NCBI RefSeq assembly: GCF_000024565.1
Contig: NC_013515.1
Span: forward strand, 1,346,497-1,410,496
Direction of reading: 5' to 3'
DNA: 64,000 nt
Source: Streptobacillus moniliformis DSM 12112
Lineage (GTDB): Bacteria; Fusobacteriota; Fusobacteriia; Fusobacteriales; Leptotrichiaceae
The translations under genes and the position numbers were made by a program. Positions 22,103-60,731 of this stretch are shown one piece after another (positions within the stretch are counted from its first letter, which is position 1; each line of letters starts with the position of its first letter). The notes under the pieces are model-generated. The model did not search any database. It was not told the origin of the DNA and saw only the letters and a list, made by a program, of their open reading frames with translations.

Positions 22103-25100
22103 CTATCTTAATTCAATCTCTACCCTTCTATTAGAAGACCTTCCACTTGAACTCTTATTTGTTTCTACTATGTTATTATATCCTGATGAACTTACCTTCC
22201 TTATTGATATACTCATATCTAAGCCTAACTCTCTTAGTTTCTTTGCTACTACATTTGCTCTCTTTAAACCTAACTCAAGATTTAAATTCTCTCCTGATAC
22301 ATTATCTGTATACCCTGTTATATATATCTTCCTATTCTTATAGTTCTCATTTAACTCTCTTACTATATTCTTTAACATCTCTTCTTGGCTCTTTGTTAGC
22401 TCATGTATACCTAATCTATATCCATCTAGTGTGTATAAGTCATCTTCATTCATCTTAATATCTTCAAATTCTTTTAATTTCTTCTCAAGTTCATCTATTC
22501 TCTTATTTAATTTATTATTTAATTCATTTAGTTTTACTATTGAATTATTAACTTCATCATTATTTACTATTACTTCTTTTTCTATTATAACTTCTTTATC
22601 TTTCTTTATATTAACACTACTTCCAAACTGATATCCTATACCTGCTCCTAATGATACATGTCCTTTAGTATTAAGTGCTCCACTTACCTTATATACTACA
22701 TTTCCTACTTCATTTAAACCTGATAGTCCCAGTGCAAAGGCATGTTCTCCGTTATAGTAACCATATGAACCTGCTATGTTGTGTCTTCTATCATCTAATG
22801 TACTTATTTGTGGTAAGTTTGCCATTGCTACAGCATTAGCTACCCCACTATTTGCTGCTACTCCTTTTGCTATATCACTTTTTACTTTATCTGTTAGATC
22901 TACACTAACTTCATTTCCTTTTGCTTCTGTCTTAATATAATCTGTTCCTTTAATTGAAAACTTAAGTCCTCCATTTTTGTTTAGACTTTGTGTATCTGTA
23001 TTTCCTTTATCTGCTCCAAATGATAATGTATTATTTCCTAAAGTATTTATTGCTTTAGCTACATCTCCTGTTTTAGCTATTTTTTCATTATCAGATGATT
23101 TAGCTTCTATTTTATCATTACTTACCTCTGTAGTAATTGTACCTACATTAGCTTTTAATTTTCCATCTTTATCTTTTAGTATAGTCTTATTATCAGTCTT
23201 TACATCTAATGTATATGTATATTTATTCTTATCACCATCATAACTTGATTTTACATTTATTGCTGAATCATTTTCTGCCTTAACTTCCGTTCTACTATCT
23301 TTTAATTGTTTTAGATTAACTCCATCAGTATCTGCTTTTCCAGCTCCAACATTACTTATCTTATTTCCACCATTATTTAAACCATCTTTAGTTAAAGATA
23401 CTACTTTATCACCTTTATCAGAATTTATTTTTAATCCATCTCCTGTAATATTAGTAGTATTCCCACTATTATCTTTAAATTCTGAACTAGTTAAATCTTT
23501 AAGTTCTTTATTTAATGAATAAGTAAAATCTTTACCTTTTTGTTTAATAGATAAGTTATCTCCTGCATTAAGTTTTACTGTATCATCTTTTTTAACTTTT
23601 TCTGTTGTTATTCCTTCAGCATTACCTGTTCCAGTTTTTCCAGAAGTTATATTAAATCCTGATTCTTTTATTGTATCATTTACTTTTTTATCAAGTTCTT
23701 TTAATTGATCTTCTGTTGCTACCTGACCACTAGTAATATTATTTGAATCCCACTTCTTATTAGTTAAACCATTAATTGTTCCTTTACCATCTTTGTTTGT
23801 TATAACATTTCCTGCTTTAACTTCTCCTGTCTTACCATTTAATTCTACTTGTTTATCTCCAGAACCTAATGTTACCTTATCGTTTAATTTAACATCATAT
23901 TCTTTACTTCCATTAGCTCCATCTTTTTGTGTTACTACAATATTATTATCACTAGATTTTACAGTTGTTTTTGAAGCTTTTGATTCTTTATCTAATTTAT
24001 CTTCTAACTCCTTTTTAACCTTATCTAATTGTGATTTATTTACAGCATCTGTATCTTTTTCTCCTGCTGCTACATTAGTTATCTTATTTCCACCATTGTT
24101 TAATCCATCTTTAGTTACTGATACTGATTTACCACTATTTTTATCAGAATTTATACTCATACCACTTCCTGTGATATTAGTTTTATTTCCATCTTTATCT
24201 TTAAATTCTGAACTAGTTAAATCTTTAAGTTCCTTATTTAATGAATAAGTAAAATCTTTTCCACTCTGACTAATAGATAAATTATCTCCTGCACTTAATT
24301 TTAATGTATCTCCTTTTGACATCTTTTCTTTACTAGATGTTCCTAAGTTATTTCCTGTTCCACTTTTACCTGATATTACATAAAAATCATAACTATTTGT
24401 TGCCTGTCCTTTATTTAGACTATCACTTAATGCTTTTAATTGATCCTCTGTTGCTGCTCTTCCACTTGTAATATTAGTTGGATCCCAAGTCTTATTAGTT
24501 AATCCAGTTATTGTTCCAGAATTTCCATCTAAAATTAAATTTTTACTCCCTAAAGTTATCTTATCATTTAACTTAACATTGTATTTTCTATGTCCATCTT
24601 TATCATCTTTTGATGTTAATACAATATTTCCAGATGTTTTATTTGCTTGTTCTTCATTATTAGCAATAACTTCTGTTTTTGAAGCTTTTATTGCATCATG
24701 AATAGTATTTTTACCAGTATCACCAATATTAGTCATATTAAGTTTTCCATTTGTAGTTATAGCTGCATTTCCACCTAAAATACTCTTAGCTGAATCTACA
24801 AATGTTCCTAATACCATATTAGTTGCATAAAGTTGTGATCCATTTATTGCATCTGTTGATTCCTTACTTATTTGTCCTGCTGCTACATGTTGTAATTGTC
24901 TTTCTTTACCTTTACTTCCTATAGATATTACTGAAATAGGGGTTTTACCTGCAAATTCACCAAATGTCATTCCATTTATACTAAATTTATTTGTTGCAAC
25001 TTGTTTTGTTGTTTCACTTTCTGATCCAAGTGCTACTGATTTTTCTATAGTTGCTTTTGAATCTGCTCCTATAGCCGTAGAACTAACTTCTTCTGCTTTT

Positions 25101-26338
25101 GAACTAACTCCTATAGCTGTAGTTTTTTTATGATCAGCTTTTGAGAAAGCACCTATTGCTGTTGCTCCTGTAATTGCTAATTCTCCTCCACCTACTTTTG
25201 TTCCTTTACTTCCTGAACTAGCCATATATCCTATAGCAACATCTCCTACATACTCTGTTTTAGAATTATTTCCTATTGATATAGCGTGTATTTCTTTAGA
25301 ACCTGCCTCTTTTCCTATCGCTATTCCATGTTTTGTTTTTGTTGTTGCAGAAACTCCTATAGCAATTGAATCAGATTGCTCTGCTATTGCATTTTTACCT
25401 ATAGTTATTGAATCTTTTTCTTTTGATTTAGCTCCATTTCCTATAGATATACTATTTTCTCCTTCTGATAATGTTTCATTACCTATAGCTATTGCATTAT
25501 TTCTATTAGTTCTTGAAGTAGTTCCTAATGCAATAGCATTAGTTCCACTACTTTTTGAATTATTACCTATTGAAATTGAACTTTCTCCTCCAGCATAACC
25601 ATTATTTCCTATATTTATTGAATTTGCTGCCATTGCTTCAATTTTATTTCCTAAAGCTATGGCATTATTAGCATTAGTTTTTGAAGTATTACCTATAGCA
25701 ATAGCATTAGTTCCACTACTTTTCGTATTATTTCCTATTGAAACTGAACTTTTACCTCCAGCATAACCACCATTACCTATAGCTATTGAATCATCAGACA
25801 TTGCATCAATTTTATTTCCTAAAGCTAGACTATTTGCTCCACTTGATTTTGATCCTAAACCAAAAACTGAACTATTTTTACCTATTGCTTTAACATCATT
25901 TCCAAAAGCTACAGAATTTTCTCCTTTACTCCCAGCTTTTCTACCTACAGCAACAGAATCTTTTCCAATCGAATTTGATTCCATACCAATAGCTATAGAT
26001 GATGAACCTGATGCTTGATTCCATGCACCTAAAGCAACTGAATTACTTTCTCCAACAATATTCTTATATCCTATAGCTACTACATTAGAAGCACTCGCTT
26101 TATTTGCCTTATTTTTAGCACCTATTAATATTGATTTTTGAACACCATTTTCAAAAACATTTGATAATTCAGTTTTAGTTCCATCTGATTTAATGTCAGT
26201 TCCAATTATATAATTATCACTTCCATTTCCACGCTTATTTTCACCACTTACACTACCTCCATCTTCTGTATAAATAGAATCTGTATAAGAAATCGTCGAC
26301 AAGAATAATAAAATTGCAACCAAGTTTTTTTTATTCAT
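22103..26338 (-). CDS. trimeric autotransporter adhesin (YadA type) with C-terminal OmpA domain
   Basis: 1411 residues. Signal peptide MNKKNLVAILLFLSTISYTDS. Residues about 60-450 are Hep_Hag head repeats (…SIAIGNGG, AIALGN) of 14-16 residues. A neck and stalk follow with two long repeats of about 242 residues, each with LKDLTSSEFKD and GDNLSI. The YadA anchor is about 1154-1241 (AKGVAANSGVANAVAMANLP to GYQF). Unusually, it continues for 170 residues: a coiled coil (1245-1300) and an OmpA domain (1300-1411) with GYTDN (Asp1345) and SNRRVEIEL (Arg1404-1405), the peptidoglycan (DAP) contacts. Transcribed from a G-tract promoter and led by a hairpin-spaced SD, described separately. Likely role: surface adhesion. 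Confidence 0.9.
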   Translation of the reverse strand: MNKKNLVAILLFLSTISYTDSIYTEDGGSVSGENKRGNGSDNYIIGTDIKSDGTKTELSNVFENGVQKSILIGAKNKANKASASNVVAIGYKNIVGESNSVALGAWNQASGSSSIAIGMESNSIGKDSVAVGRKAGSKGENSVAFGNDVKAIGKNSSVFGLGSKSSGANSLALGNKIDAMSDDSIAIGNGGYAGGKSSVSIGNNTKSSGTNAIAIGNTSKTNANNAIALGNKIEAMAANSINIGNNGYAGGESSISIGNNSKSSGTNAIALGTTSRTNRNNAIAIGNETLSEGENSISIGNGAKSKEKDSITIGKNAIAEQSDSIAIGVSATTKTKHGIAIGKEAGSKEIHAISIGNNSKTEYVGDVAIGYMASSGSKGTKVGGGELAITGATAIGAFSKADHKKTTAIGVSSKAEEVSSTAIGADSKATIEKSVALGSESETTKQVATNKFSINGMTFGEFAGKTPISVISIGSKGKERQLQHVAAGQISKESTDAINGSQLYATNMVLGTFVDSAKSILGGNAAITTNGKLNMTNIGDTGKNTIHDAIKASKTEVIANNEEQANKTSGNIVLTSKDDKDGHRKYNVKLNDKITLGSKNLILDGNSGTITGLTNKTWDPTNITSGRAATEDQLKALSDSLNKGQATNSYDFYVISGKSGTGNNLGTSSKEKMSKGDTLKLSAGDNLSISQSGKDFTYSLNKELKDLTSSEFKDKDGNKTNITGSGMSINSDKNSGKSVSVTKDGLNNGGNKITNVAAGEKDTDAVNKSQLDKVKKELEDKLDKESKASKTTVKSSDNNIVVTQKDGANGSKEYDVKLNDKVTLGSGDKQVELNGKTGEVKAGNVITNKDGKGTINGLTNKKWDSNNITSGQVATEDQLKELDKKVNDTIKESGFNITSGKTGTGNAEGITTEKVKKDDTVKLNAGDNLSIKQKGKDFTYSLNKELKDLTSSEFKDNSGNTTNITGDGLKINSDKGDKVVSLTKDGLNNGGNKISNVGAGKADTDGVNLKQLKDSRTEVKAENDSAINVKSSYDGDKNKYTYTLDVKTDNKTILKDKDGKLKANVGTITTEVSNDKIEAKSSDNEKIAKTGDVAKAINTLGNNTLSFGADKGNTDTQSLNKNGGLKFSIKGTDYIKTEAKGNEVSVDLTDKVKSDIAKGVAANSGVANAVAMANLPQISTLDDRRHNIAGSYGYYNGEHAFALGLSGLNEVGNVVYKVSGALNTKGHVSLGAGIGYQFGSSVNIKKDKEVIIEKEVIVNNDEVNNSIVKLNELNNKLNKRIDELEKKLKEFEDIKMNEDDLYTLDGYRLGIHELTKSQEEMLKNIVRELNENYKNRKIYITGYTDNVSGENLNLELGLKRANVVAKKLRELGLDMSISIRKVSSSGYNNIVETNKSSSGRSSNRRVEIELR

Positions 26339-26400: not shown

Positions 26401-26432
26401 AGTATACCCCCCCCCCCGTTCTTTTTTGTCAA
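26401..26432 (-). promoter_or_regulatory. G11-tract promoter of the trimeric autotransporter (putative phase-variable)
   Basis: Minus strand: TTGACA (26427-26432), nine bases AAAAAGAAC, then eleven G (26407-26417), then TATACT (26401-26406). The spacer is 20 bp; eight Gs would give the optimal 17. The same layout precedes the autotransporter at 60649. Confidence 0.8.
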
Positions 26433-58036: not shown

Positions 58037-60649
58037 TTATCTTAATTTATATTGCACACCAAATTCTGCTCCATTTGCTCTGTAACCAGCCTCATTAAAT
58101 CTATGAACTATATTTACCCACATACTTAATCTATCATTAACATTCATCTCTCTTAATCCCCACTTTAATTCAAATGTGTTCTTGTTATTATTATATAAAT
58201 ACTCTTCCTTTTCTACTCTAACTCCTACCAACCTTGTATCATAAATCCAATTAAACTCTAAATATGGATTTATGTTTTTAAAATGAGTAAATAATGTAAG
58301 ATTAGTCCCCAGTCTTGATTTAATATTTGAATTACCAAAATATTTTACATCTTCATCATATTTAAGTCCTGTATTAAATATATGAGAATATATTAACTGC
58401 CAATAATGACTAGAATGTAATCTCATCTTACCTATATACATATCTCCTCTTGTCCCTATTTCTAAAGACGCTTTTAATGCATGATTTATATATCTTAACT
58501 CATTTTTTATAGCTATCCTATTTTTTAAATACATATAGTTTAACCAACTATCTACATACCAATTATTATTCTTAAATGTTCCATATATACCAAGTCCAAA
58601 TGCATTAGTTTTACCTAAATTATTTGCTTTATCGAAACCAACATTTCCAAATACACCATATTTATATGTTCTATCTTTAATATTACTTTCTACTAAATCA
58701 TAACCCATAAAGATATTACTCGTATTACTTTTTATAGGTAAATTAAATTTATTATCACCTGATAATATATTATTAGAATATATCTTAGATAGTTTAGTCC
58801 ATAGTTTTTTATTAGCTATACTTTCATTATGATCATTAAATGTTAAATTAAATTCATTTCTTGCATTATTAGTAGAATTTAATATTATTCCTATTATAGG
58901 CATATTATATGTCTGATTTAAATACCAATCATTACCTTCTAAATTTAACCCATATTTATATATACCGTATTCTGAATTTAATAAGGTAAAAGCATCTTTT
59001 GTTGAACTTTTAGTTTCTATTAATTTTAACTTATTTTTCATTCTCTTATCTAATGTGGAGTTAGGATTTGAAATCTCTACTCCTGTACTTCCATTTACTG
59101 AGCCATCTAGTTTAAGCTTATCTGATTTTAGTTCATCTATATATGTTCTCATTAGTAGTTTAGAGTTTTCTCCTATATAGTTTCCTTTAATACTGAGATT
59201 ACTCGTATTATCTTTACTATTTAAAAAGCTAATCAAACCTTTATTTACAAATTTATCTTCTACTTCTATATTTGAAGCTTCTAATACATTAATAGTTGAT
59301 CTTTCATTATTAGTGAACTTTTTAGTTTTTAACTTAGCTTTTCTAATAGATGGATTACTATTTTCAACTAATATTTCATTGTTCACTTTGTATTCTTCAT
59401 TAATAAACTCCCATTTAGAACTATCTAAATGTAATTTCTCAAATTCTTTAAATTTATTACTATCTGTTATTTTACCCTCACCTATTAATCTTAAAGTATC
59501 ATTATCTCCTTCAGTACTATCTAATTCTCCTGTTACATTATCCATTGATTTTATAGTAACTATAGTTTCCTTAAATCCTTTTCTTGATAAAAGTAAATTA
59601 CCCTCTAATACTCCATTTTGTAAATTAACTCTTAAAGGGGATATTTCTTCCTTTTTATCATCTATATTTGAAGAAGGATCTTCAATAATCATATTACCTT
59701 TAATTTTACCATTATTATCTATTTTTCCCCTTAGAGCATAAAGTTGAAAATCATTTTCCGTTTCTATAGTTCCAAAATTTTGAAAATTCATATTTAACAC
59801 AGACATCATATGAGCACTCGCATCCTTTATAACTCCAGTTTTTGTATTTAAAAAAATACTTTCTCTATCATCATTAATATCAAGATCTGTGTTTTGAATA
59901 TATAGTTCACCTTTTATTGTTCCAGAATTTACTATCCTTGAAACAGCTGTATTTACATCAACAAATAGCCCGTTGTTAATTGTTCCCTCATTTTTTAAAC
60001 TTAAATCCCCAGCACCAGCCATTTTAAAATTTTTTATTATACCATGTTTTCCATTTATTATACTTCCAGTATTTTGAGAAACAAAACTAAGAGTTTCTAT
60101 CATTCCATAATTATCTAAAAAAGCTAATTTCTCTGCTCCTATTCCAAGACTACCTTTTAGTACTGAATTTTCTGAATTAACATAATGGACATATGGGGCA
60201 TTTAAATCTAAAGCACTACCCTCTCCTTTTTGAGTTATTTCCTTATTATTTATTACATAAACTAATTTCCTATAATGAACCTCATCTATAACTTTGTCTT
60301 TTTGAAAAGTTTCTTTTCCACCTAAAATTATTTCTTTTGAACTCGAGATATTTGCATTATTCTCAAATATAAGACTATTAGCATTTGCATTTGAATTTAC
60401 AATAACTTCACTTGATGATATATCTTCATTTATTATTATATTACCATTTTTACCATCTTTTACACGAAAGGTATCTCCTGTTTTTTCTACTCCATCTTCA
60501 TCATATATTATCTGCTTTTCAATTTCCTCTATTTTTTCAAAATCTTTTTTTATCATTTCATCAACAATTTTTTCAGTAGATTGTTCAGAATTAGAAATAA
60601 TTGAAAATGATGTTAAAAAAATAAACAAAAATATACCTTTTCTATACAT
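58037..60649 (-). CDS. classical (type Va) autotransporter
   Basis: 870 residues. The signal peptide is in MYRKGIFLFIFLTSFSIISN. A passenger of about 30-580 with regular beta-helix-like turns (NEGTINNGLFVD, SGTIKGELYIQN) follows. The C-terminal barrel is about 600-870: GVFGNVGFDKAN, WYVDSWLNYMYLKNR and a terminal FGVQYKLR. The last residue is Arg, not Phe or Trp. It could be an adhesin or protease carrier; no catalytic motif was seen. SD AAGGAG; promoter with a G9 tract (separate entry). It is not cotranscribed with rplB because of a terminator. Confidence 0.82.
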   Translation of the reverse strand: MYRKGIFLFIFLTSFSIISNSEQSTEKIVDEMIKKDFEKIEEIEKQIIYDEDGVEKTGDTFRVKDGKNGNIIINEDISSSEVIVNSNANANSLIFENNANISSSKEIILGGKETFQKDKVIDEVHYRKLVYVINNKEITQKGEGSALDLNAPYVHYVNSENSVLKGSLGIGAEKLAFLDNYGMIETLSFVSQNTGSIINGKHGIIKNFKMAGAGDLSLKNEGTINNGLFVDVNTAVSRIVNSGTIKGELYIQNTDLDINDDRESIFLNTKTGVIKDASAHMMSVLNMNFQNFGTIETENDFQLYALRGKIDNNGKIKGNMIIEDPSSNIDDKKEEISPLRVNLQNGVLEGNLLLSRKGFKETIVTIKSMDNVTGELDSTEGDNDTLRLIGEGKITDSNKFKEFEKLHLDSSKWEFINEEYKVNNEILVENSNPSIRKAKLKTKKFTNNERSTINVLEASNIEVEDKFVNKGLISFLNSKDNTSNLSIKGNYIGENSKLLMRTYIDELKSDKLKLDGSVNGSTGVEISNPNSTLDKRMKNKLKLIETKSSTKDAFTLLNSEYGIYKYGLNLEGNDWYLNQTYNMPIIGIILNSTNNARNEFNLTFNDHNESIANKKLWTKLSKIYSNNILSGDNKFNLPIKSNTSNIFMGYDLVESNIKDRTYKYGVFGNVGFDKANNLGKTNAFGLGIYGTFKNNNWYVDSWLNYMYLKNRIAIKNELRYINHALKASLEIGTRGDMYIGKMRLHSSHYWQLIYSHIFNTGLKYDEDVKYFGNSNIKSRLGTNLTLFTHFKNINPYLEFNWIYDTRLVGVRVEKEEYLYNNNKNTFELKWGLREMNVNDRLSMWVNIVHRFNEAGYRANGAEFGVQYKLR

Positions 60650-60701
60650 TATTATCTCCTTTTTACCATTTTGTTATTTTTTTATCAATATTATTAATAA
60701 C

Positions 60702-60731
60702 AGTATACCCCCCCCCAGAACATTTTGTCAA
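60702..60731 (-). promoter_or_regulatory. G9-tract promoter of the autotransporter (putative phase-variable)
   Basis: Minus strand: TTGACA (60726-60731), nine bases AAATGTTCT, nine G (60708-60716), TATACT (60702-60707). The spacer is 18 bp; eight Gs would give 17. Same design as the promoter at 26401-26432. Confidence 0.8.

Follow-up and report, generated by a model that had tools for sequence, protein, structure and literature searches.

Does the guanine run in the promoter at positions 60702–60731 reflect chance, or is it one copy of a genome-wide module for the independent switching of envelope genes? The promoter lies on the minus strand of the window, the whole 64,000-nucleotide stretch analysed here, which corresponds to bases 1,346,497–1,410,496 of the Streptobacillus moniliformis chromosome.

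Two poly-G promoters precede unrelated autotransporters

Reading of the minus strand confirmed the design TTGACA-N9-G9-TATACT with a total spacer of 18 bp. The −35 box TTGACA (60726–60731) is followed by nine bases, AAATGTTCT (60717–60725), by a homopolymer of nine G (60708–60716), which is the proposed length switch, and by the −10 box TATACT (60702–60707). A ribosome-binding site, AAAAGGAG, can be read from the sequence at 60656–60663, and 52 bp separate the −10 box from the start of the downstream gene (58037–60649, minus strand). This gene encodes an 870-residue protein with an N-terminal signal sequence, a passenger end matching PF18883 (AC_1)/PF03212 (Pertactin) and a C-terminal PF03797 beta-domain (Autotransporter), all above cut-off. 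The combination of an autochaperone/pertactin passenger end with a beta-domain identifies it as a pertactin-type (classical) autotransporter.

A promoter of the same build, TTGACA-N9-G11-TATACT with a spacer of 20 bp, is located at 26401–26432 on the minus strand, upstream of a gene for a 1411-residue YadA-type trimeric autotransporter with a C-terminal OmpA domain (22103–26338, minus strand). Here the head, stalk and anchor domains of the YadA type are present (PF05658, PF05662 and PF03895, above cut-off), together with OmpA PF00691. The initial annotation had called the two autotransporters unrelated, and their assignment to the pertactin and YadA types bears this out. It had also considered a chance run unlikely, in agreement with two occurrences of the pattern in the window versus none in 100 dinucleotide shuffles.

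The design recurs throughout the S. moniliformis genome

The genome of S. moniliformis 9901T is reported to comprise 1,673,280 bp in total, with a chromosome of 1,662,578 bp (PMC3035246). The strict pattern (six or more G) has 31 matches in it, versus none for a reversed control pattern. Our census started from every run of at least seven G, with no promoter presupposed, and took all 43 with their flanks. Thirty-six of them are flanked by an exact TTGACA on one side and by a TATAAT-like box (at least four of six matches to TATAAT) on the other, the porA-type arrangement of a homopolymer between −35 and −10 boxes; the other seven (L011, L024, L025, L032, L037, L041 and L045) fall outside the design. 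We refer to the 36 as switch promoters, a name given on strong inference. Their −10 box is TATAAT in 22 cases, TATACT in 9 and another sequence in 5, and AA directly follows TTGACA in 35. Their tracts hold 9–13 G: an uninterrupted run of 6–8 G is absent from the strict pattern, and all 36 tracts have at least nine. An i.i.d. estimate predicts 0.03 runs of nine or more G in the whole genome. Chance or low-complexity noise is ruled out by the shuffles, the reversed-pattern control and this estimate, and a module limited to the two window genes by the 36 genome sites. The nine-base left part of the spacer, noted in the initial annotation as identical in length at the two window sites, is indeed common to both but not to the genome, where this part spans 6 to 10 bases, with nine the commonest length (21/36).

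Apart from the boxes, no shared motif was seen in the 60 bp before the 36 promoters or the 40 bp after them. Spread of one module with common flanks is ruled out, since no flank is conserved beyond the boxes; sub-families do share leaders. All 36 promoters point in the plus direction below 630 kb and in the minus direction above 900 kb, which would match the leading-strand direction if the origin lies near base 1. A site with five G at chromosome position 113896, upstream of a predicted regulator that is presumably of the DeoR type, was set aside as an ordinary promoter because its tract does not vary; it is identical between species, and a run of this length is not expected to slip.

Switch promoters precede predicted surface-protein genes

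Trimeric autotransporters of the YadA type account for 17 of the downstream genes and pertactin-type autotransporters for 4; a further 11 encode small barrels, 3 encode large predicted barrels and 1 encodes another protein. All 36 are predicted outer-membrane or surface proteins by Pfam or by a signal sequence plus family features, 15 of the assignments resting on signal sequence, family resemblance or model and not on Pfam. Genome-wide, signal peptides are reported for 262 genes (16.73%) of S. moniliformis (PMC3035246). The initial annotation had proposed that a genome-wide list of such promoters whose downstream genes are limited to surface proteins would support the module, and that random positions unrelated to gene starts, or stable tract lengths, would speak against it. 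The list returned surface proteins at 36 of 36 promoters, and at 0 of 36 is the position unrelated to a gene start.

We also examined the protein families as a whole. The genome holds 24 YadA-anchor matches. Large adhesins account for 20 of them, and a switch promoter stands before 17 of these 20. Of the other three, the first is preceded by a promoter whose G run is broken (GGAGGGTAGG, spacer 17), the second by a TTGACA/TATACT promoter that is G-free (spacer 16), and the third has no TTGACA; the remaining four anchor matches, in OmpA-like ends or short frames, have no switch promoter. Three of the four PF03797 matches are behind a switch promoter, and the fourth, a 1062-residue frame with a lipoprotein-like start, is without one. 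One promoter design serves essentially all of the autotransporters and the paralogous barrels of the outer membrane.

At 3 of the 17 YadA-type loci (L013, L020 and L051), a small secreted protein of about 180 residues (...YYD.IINQRLSVITG...), with no Pfam match, is encoded between the promoter and the large trimeric autotransporter, of which it is a possible partner. At L038 (chromosome 1338487–1339006), upstream of a pertactin-type gene, extra TTGACA/TATAAT copies occur about 225 and 490 bp away, one of them with a similar leader, resembling a tandem duplication of the promoter region.

Most of the eleven small proteins, among which L023 was placed on its signal sequence alone, carry an ITGPRYR motif after the signal sequence. 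Those tested had no fitting Pfam or NCBIfam model, apart from one sub-threshold match to a chloroplast barrel, and no NCBIfam names were obtained for the classes without Pfam. A modelled member from S. notomytis comprises an N-terminal helix and eight strands (mean pLDDT 78, three sequences), and a Foldseek search with this model returned the OmpA, OmpX, Ail and NspA barrels with E-values of about 1e-5 to 1e-3 and TM-scores of 0.4–0.5. The three large predicted barrels form a family starting ...AEYYV; a C-terminal W is found in both members inspected and in the one remaining gene (L043).

Three switch-promoter genes are broken in the type strain, namely a YadA-type gene with an internal stop (L015) and genes with a frame shift internally (L029) or near the start (L030), and part of the repertoire would therefore be silent at any tract length. 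Three small-barrel genes (L024, L025 and L041; chromosome 402719, 404264 and 1437812) contain runs of 7, 8 and 9 G in the region coding for the signal peptide. The frame is broken at L025, with 8 G, and intact at L024 and L041. These runs suggest a second, translational switch in this family.

Spacer lengths point to a possible optimum of 17 bp

The spacers of the 36 switch promoters are distributed as 15 bp (1), 16 (2), 17 (3), 18 (8), 19 (14), 20 (5), 21 (2) and 22 bp (1), so that 13 fall within 16–18 bp. Among 40 ordinary promoters with perfect consensus boxes and no long G run, 23 have a spacer of 17 bp, with 15 (3), 16 (6), 18 (6) and 20 bp (2) making up the rest. The median is 19 bp for the switch promoters versus 17 bp for the ordinary ones (Mann–Whitney p = 2.6e-7). 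Three interrupted G-rich spacers, at chromosome positions 323675, 1072954 and 1633413, precede relatives of switch genes (AEYYV relatives at the first two, the third being the broken-run promoter described above) and are all exactly 17 bp long; they apparently resemble frozen switches that lost the slippery run at a working length.

Because 17 bp is both the mode of the G-free promoters and the length of all three interrupted spacers, it looks like the working optimum in this organism, as judged from these sequences. The same spacing is given as the best for tp0126 and porA (PMC7864442). If 17 bp is indeed best, the mode of 19 bp implies that most switch loci may have been weakly active or off in the culture that was sequenced. 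The four pertactin-type paralogues have spacers of 19, 15, 19 and 18 bp, the last belonging to the promoter at 60702–60731, which is the closest of the four to this putative optimum.

Tract length changes faster than its flanks

We compared S. moniliformis, S. notomytis AHL 370-1 (G031) and a third species (G032), with one genome per species. From 31 reciprocal pairs of promoters, 12 close orthologue pairs were picked by a flank identity of at least 0.95, with one 5-G pair excluded; mean flank identity per pair was 92–98%. The G tract changed length in 10 of the 12 pairs versus 4 of 25 A/T runs of at least seven (Fisher p = 0.00014), a comparison in which pairs share loci and are not all independent, the A/T runs are shorter and each assembly provides one consensus. 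In one of the 12 pairs the tract differs while the total spacer is unchanged, and both unchanged pairs are between G031 and G032. Of all 31 reciprocal pairs, 23 differ in tract length and 8, among them the 5-G pair, do not. Within the S. moniliformis genome, the duplicates L029 and L036, which are 96% identical over 207 bp, have 9 and 11 G. Tract lengths are therefore not stable, either between orthologues or between near-identical copies in one genome. As expected for porA-type switching, the tract changes faster than its flanks between related alleles, here between species only.

Conservation in Streptobacillus and occurrence beyond the phylum

The three other Streptobacillus genomes contain 4, 22 and 20 strict sites, and runs of at least seven G are such promoters in 22 of 32 cases in G031, 19 of 24 in G032 and 3 of 10 in G030. 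With one site without room, one whose near flanks are identical to those of an S. moniliformis site and the 5-G site left aside, 43 of the 44 sites with a readable downstream gene drive the same surface families, the exception being a 6-G site. The poly-G-spacer design is conserved across the genus. In a scan of the phylum, a site with at least eight G was present in 11 of 98 genomes, and more than three such sites occurred only in three of the four Streptobacillus genomes (31, 22 and 19; the fourth has 1), which rules out that the design is common to the family or phylum as a whole. In two genomes of the same family (G012 and G015, genus g6), small peptides whose leader is of the double-glycine type (LNE.ELMTIDGG; L181 and L182) are encoded behind a poly-G promoter of this design. 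We take these peptides to be bacteriocin-like, and a phase-variable bacteriocin is possible there.

A scan of species genomes yielded at least 120 stretches, of which 80 were listed, and counts derived from it are lower bounds. Among the 79 listed non-Streptobacillus loci, 47 downstream genes of at least 100 residues were judged, and a simple, crude rule assigned a signal sequence to 38 of these 47, compared with 88 of 392 further ORFs from these loci (p = 4e-15). Spacer lengths of the listed loci peak at 18–19 bp (41/80). Site counts were made in ten genomes behind the listed loci, picked by eye: Candidatus Ancillula (G098; Actinomycetota), which we take to be a symbiont of termite protists, has 23 sites, two Bacilli MAGs called rabbit-gut after their sample name (G100 and G102) have 20 and 13, and the other seven genomes have 1–7, with reversed controls at 0. 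In the three rich genomes, all of them MAGs (40 stretches of 56 sites; L055, L082 and L239–L258 for G098, L259–L278 for G100 and G102), most stretches with room contain signal-sequence proteins, many of them paralogous. Exceptions include L240, whose product was judged by eye to be UDP-sugar-dehydrogenase-like, stretches truncated at contig ends, and L260 and L261, where room is present and the rule used found no ORF.

The occurrence of poly-G promoters before secreted proteins in Ancillula and the two Bacilli MAGs suggests convergence. We lean towards a genome-scale surface-protein switch architecture that arose separately in Fusobacteriota, Actinomycetota and gut Bacilli, with 13–36 copies per genome. 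Its spacers of mostly 18–19 bp would then reflect either a default low or off state with rare switching on, or a shift of the optimum by the poly-G itself.

Proposed mechanism and alternatives

We consider it very likely that these are phase-variable sigma-70-type promoters in which transcription is switched by spacer length, one design operating at 36 loci. Their architecture, their number, their restriction to predicted surface proteins and the length differences between orthologues and duplicates are read directly from the genomes. In the proposed mechanism, the G run, which makes up half of a spacer flanked by perfect or near-perfect boxes, would gain or lose G's by slipped-strand mispairing during replication, shifting the spacer in 1-bp steps. 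This would alter the ability of RNA polymerase to engage both boxes, with expression peaking near 17 bp and dropping with shorter or longer spacers. With 36 loci under one design, a population would therefore be a mosaic of surface phenotypes. We infer that tracts slip within a clone, that transcription responds and that the benefit lies in immune or niche diversity. Some observations weigh against phase variation: the mode of 19 bp calls for explanation if 17 bp is optimal, 5 of the 36 −10 boxes are imperfect, and in the type strain several of the genes behind these promoters are disrupted. The tract differences between species could also stem from slow build-up rather than rapid switching.

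If the G run instead had a fixed structural role in a strong promoter, for instance as A-like DNA or a stiff spacer, the genes would be a common regulatory class without switching. The strong conservation of the boxes and of the AA after TTGACA, together with the peak at a single spacer length, would fit this explanation. It is nonetheless very unlikely, given that spacers range from 15 to 22 bp within one genome and that the tract, and usually the total spacer too, differs between close orthologues despite nearly identical flanks; nor would a promoter-structure role predict coding poly-G in the barrel-family signal peptides, one of them out of frame. The paralogy of many downstream genes, several with common leaders, raises the further idea that an ancestral promoter was simply duplicated along with its genes, with no selection for a switch. 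We find this hardly credible: the design occurs in five protein classes without shared upstream sequence and before secreted proteins in unrelated phyla, and unselected G runs should decay, whereas all 36 tracts have kept at least nine G.

Switching could also be real but take a route other than spacing, with the G run influencing a regulator or DNA topology. In Treponema pallidum, tprL responds to a poly-G that leaves spacing unchanged, and at tprE, G and J the length of the poly-G works in concert with a CRP homologue; opc of N. meningitidis is a further such case (PMC7864442). In S. moniliformis, each of the 36 runs lies strictly between the boxes and the surrounding sequence offers no other shared motif, making this route improbable. 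Switching by spacer length is the reading we prefer.

Implications and comparison with known systems

Haemagglutination in Streptobacillus earlier led others to infer adhesins (PMC4529157). If our reading is correct, one DNA element lets this neglected zoonotic (rat-bite-fever) pathogen vary almost all of its autotransporters and small barrels. As the element is simple and readable, expression state would be predictable from sequence. Comparing strains or choosing antigens from a single genome would be unreliable, and Streptobacillus typing and vaccine work would have to count G's. Since unrelated bacteria also carry this design ahead of secreted proteins, one can search for it broadly and test switching by spacer length in general. 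Searches of the literature on phase variation in Streptobacillus and Fusobacteria and on poly-G promoters turned up no account of a Streptobacillus system or of a genome-wide set of this size.

The closest parallel is porA of Neisseria meningitidis, where a poly-G between the −35 and −10 boxes of an outer-membrane protein gene sets expression by its length, reported as 11G > 10G > 9G (PMC3639595). That system concerns one locus, whereas S. moniliformis has 36 promoter-spacer tracts; for poly-G tracts in all locations, a mean of 15.4 per N. meningitidis genome is reported (PMC5953494). In T. pallidum, the OmpW homologue tp0126 likewise has a poly-G between −35 and −10, with transcription best at 17 nt (PMC7864442), but few loci are involved and the phylum is different. 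The opc promoter of N. meningitidis, which serves a surface adhesin, likewise contains a homopolymer; it differs in that the tract is poly-C over the −35 region and is thought to act by another route (PMC7864442). Coding poly-G switches such as hmbR of Neisseria use the same homopolymer and presumably slippage, and at least three runs of this kind occur in S. moniliformis, but such switches shift the reading frame, while the promoters described here would change spacing. The mechanism is a known one; its scale and uniformity here are unusual, and it may have arisen convergently in unrelated bacteria.
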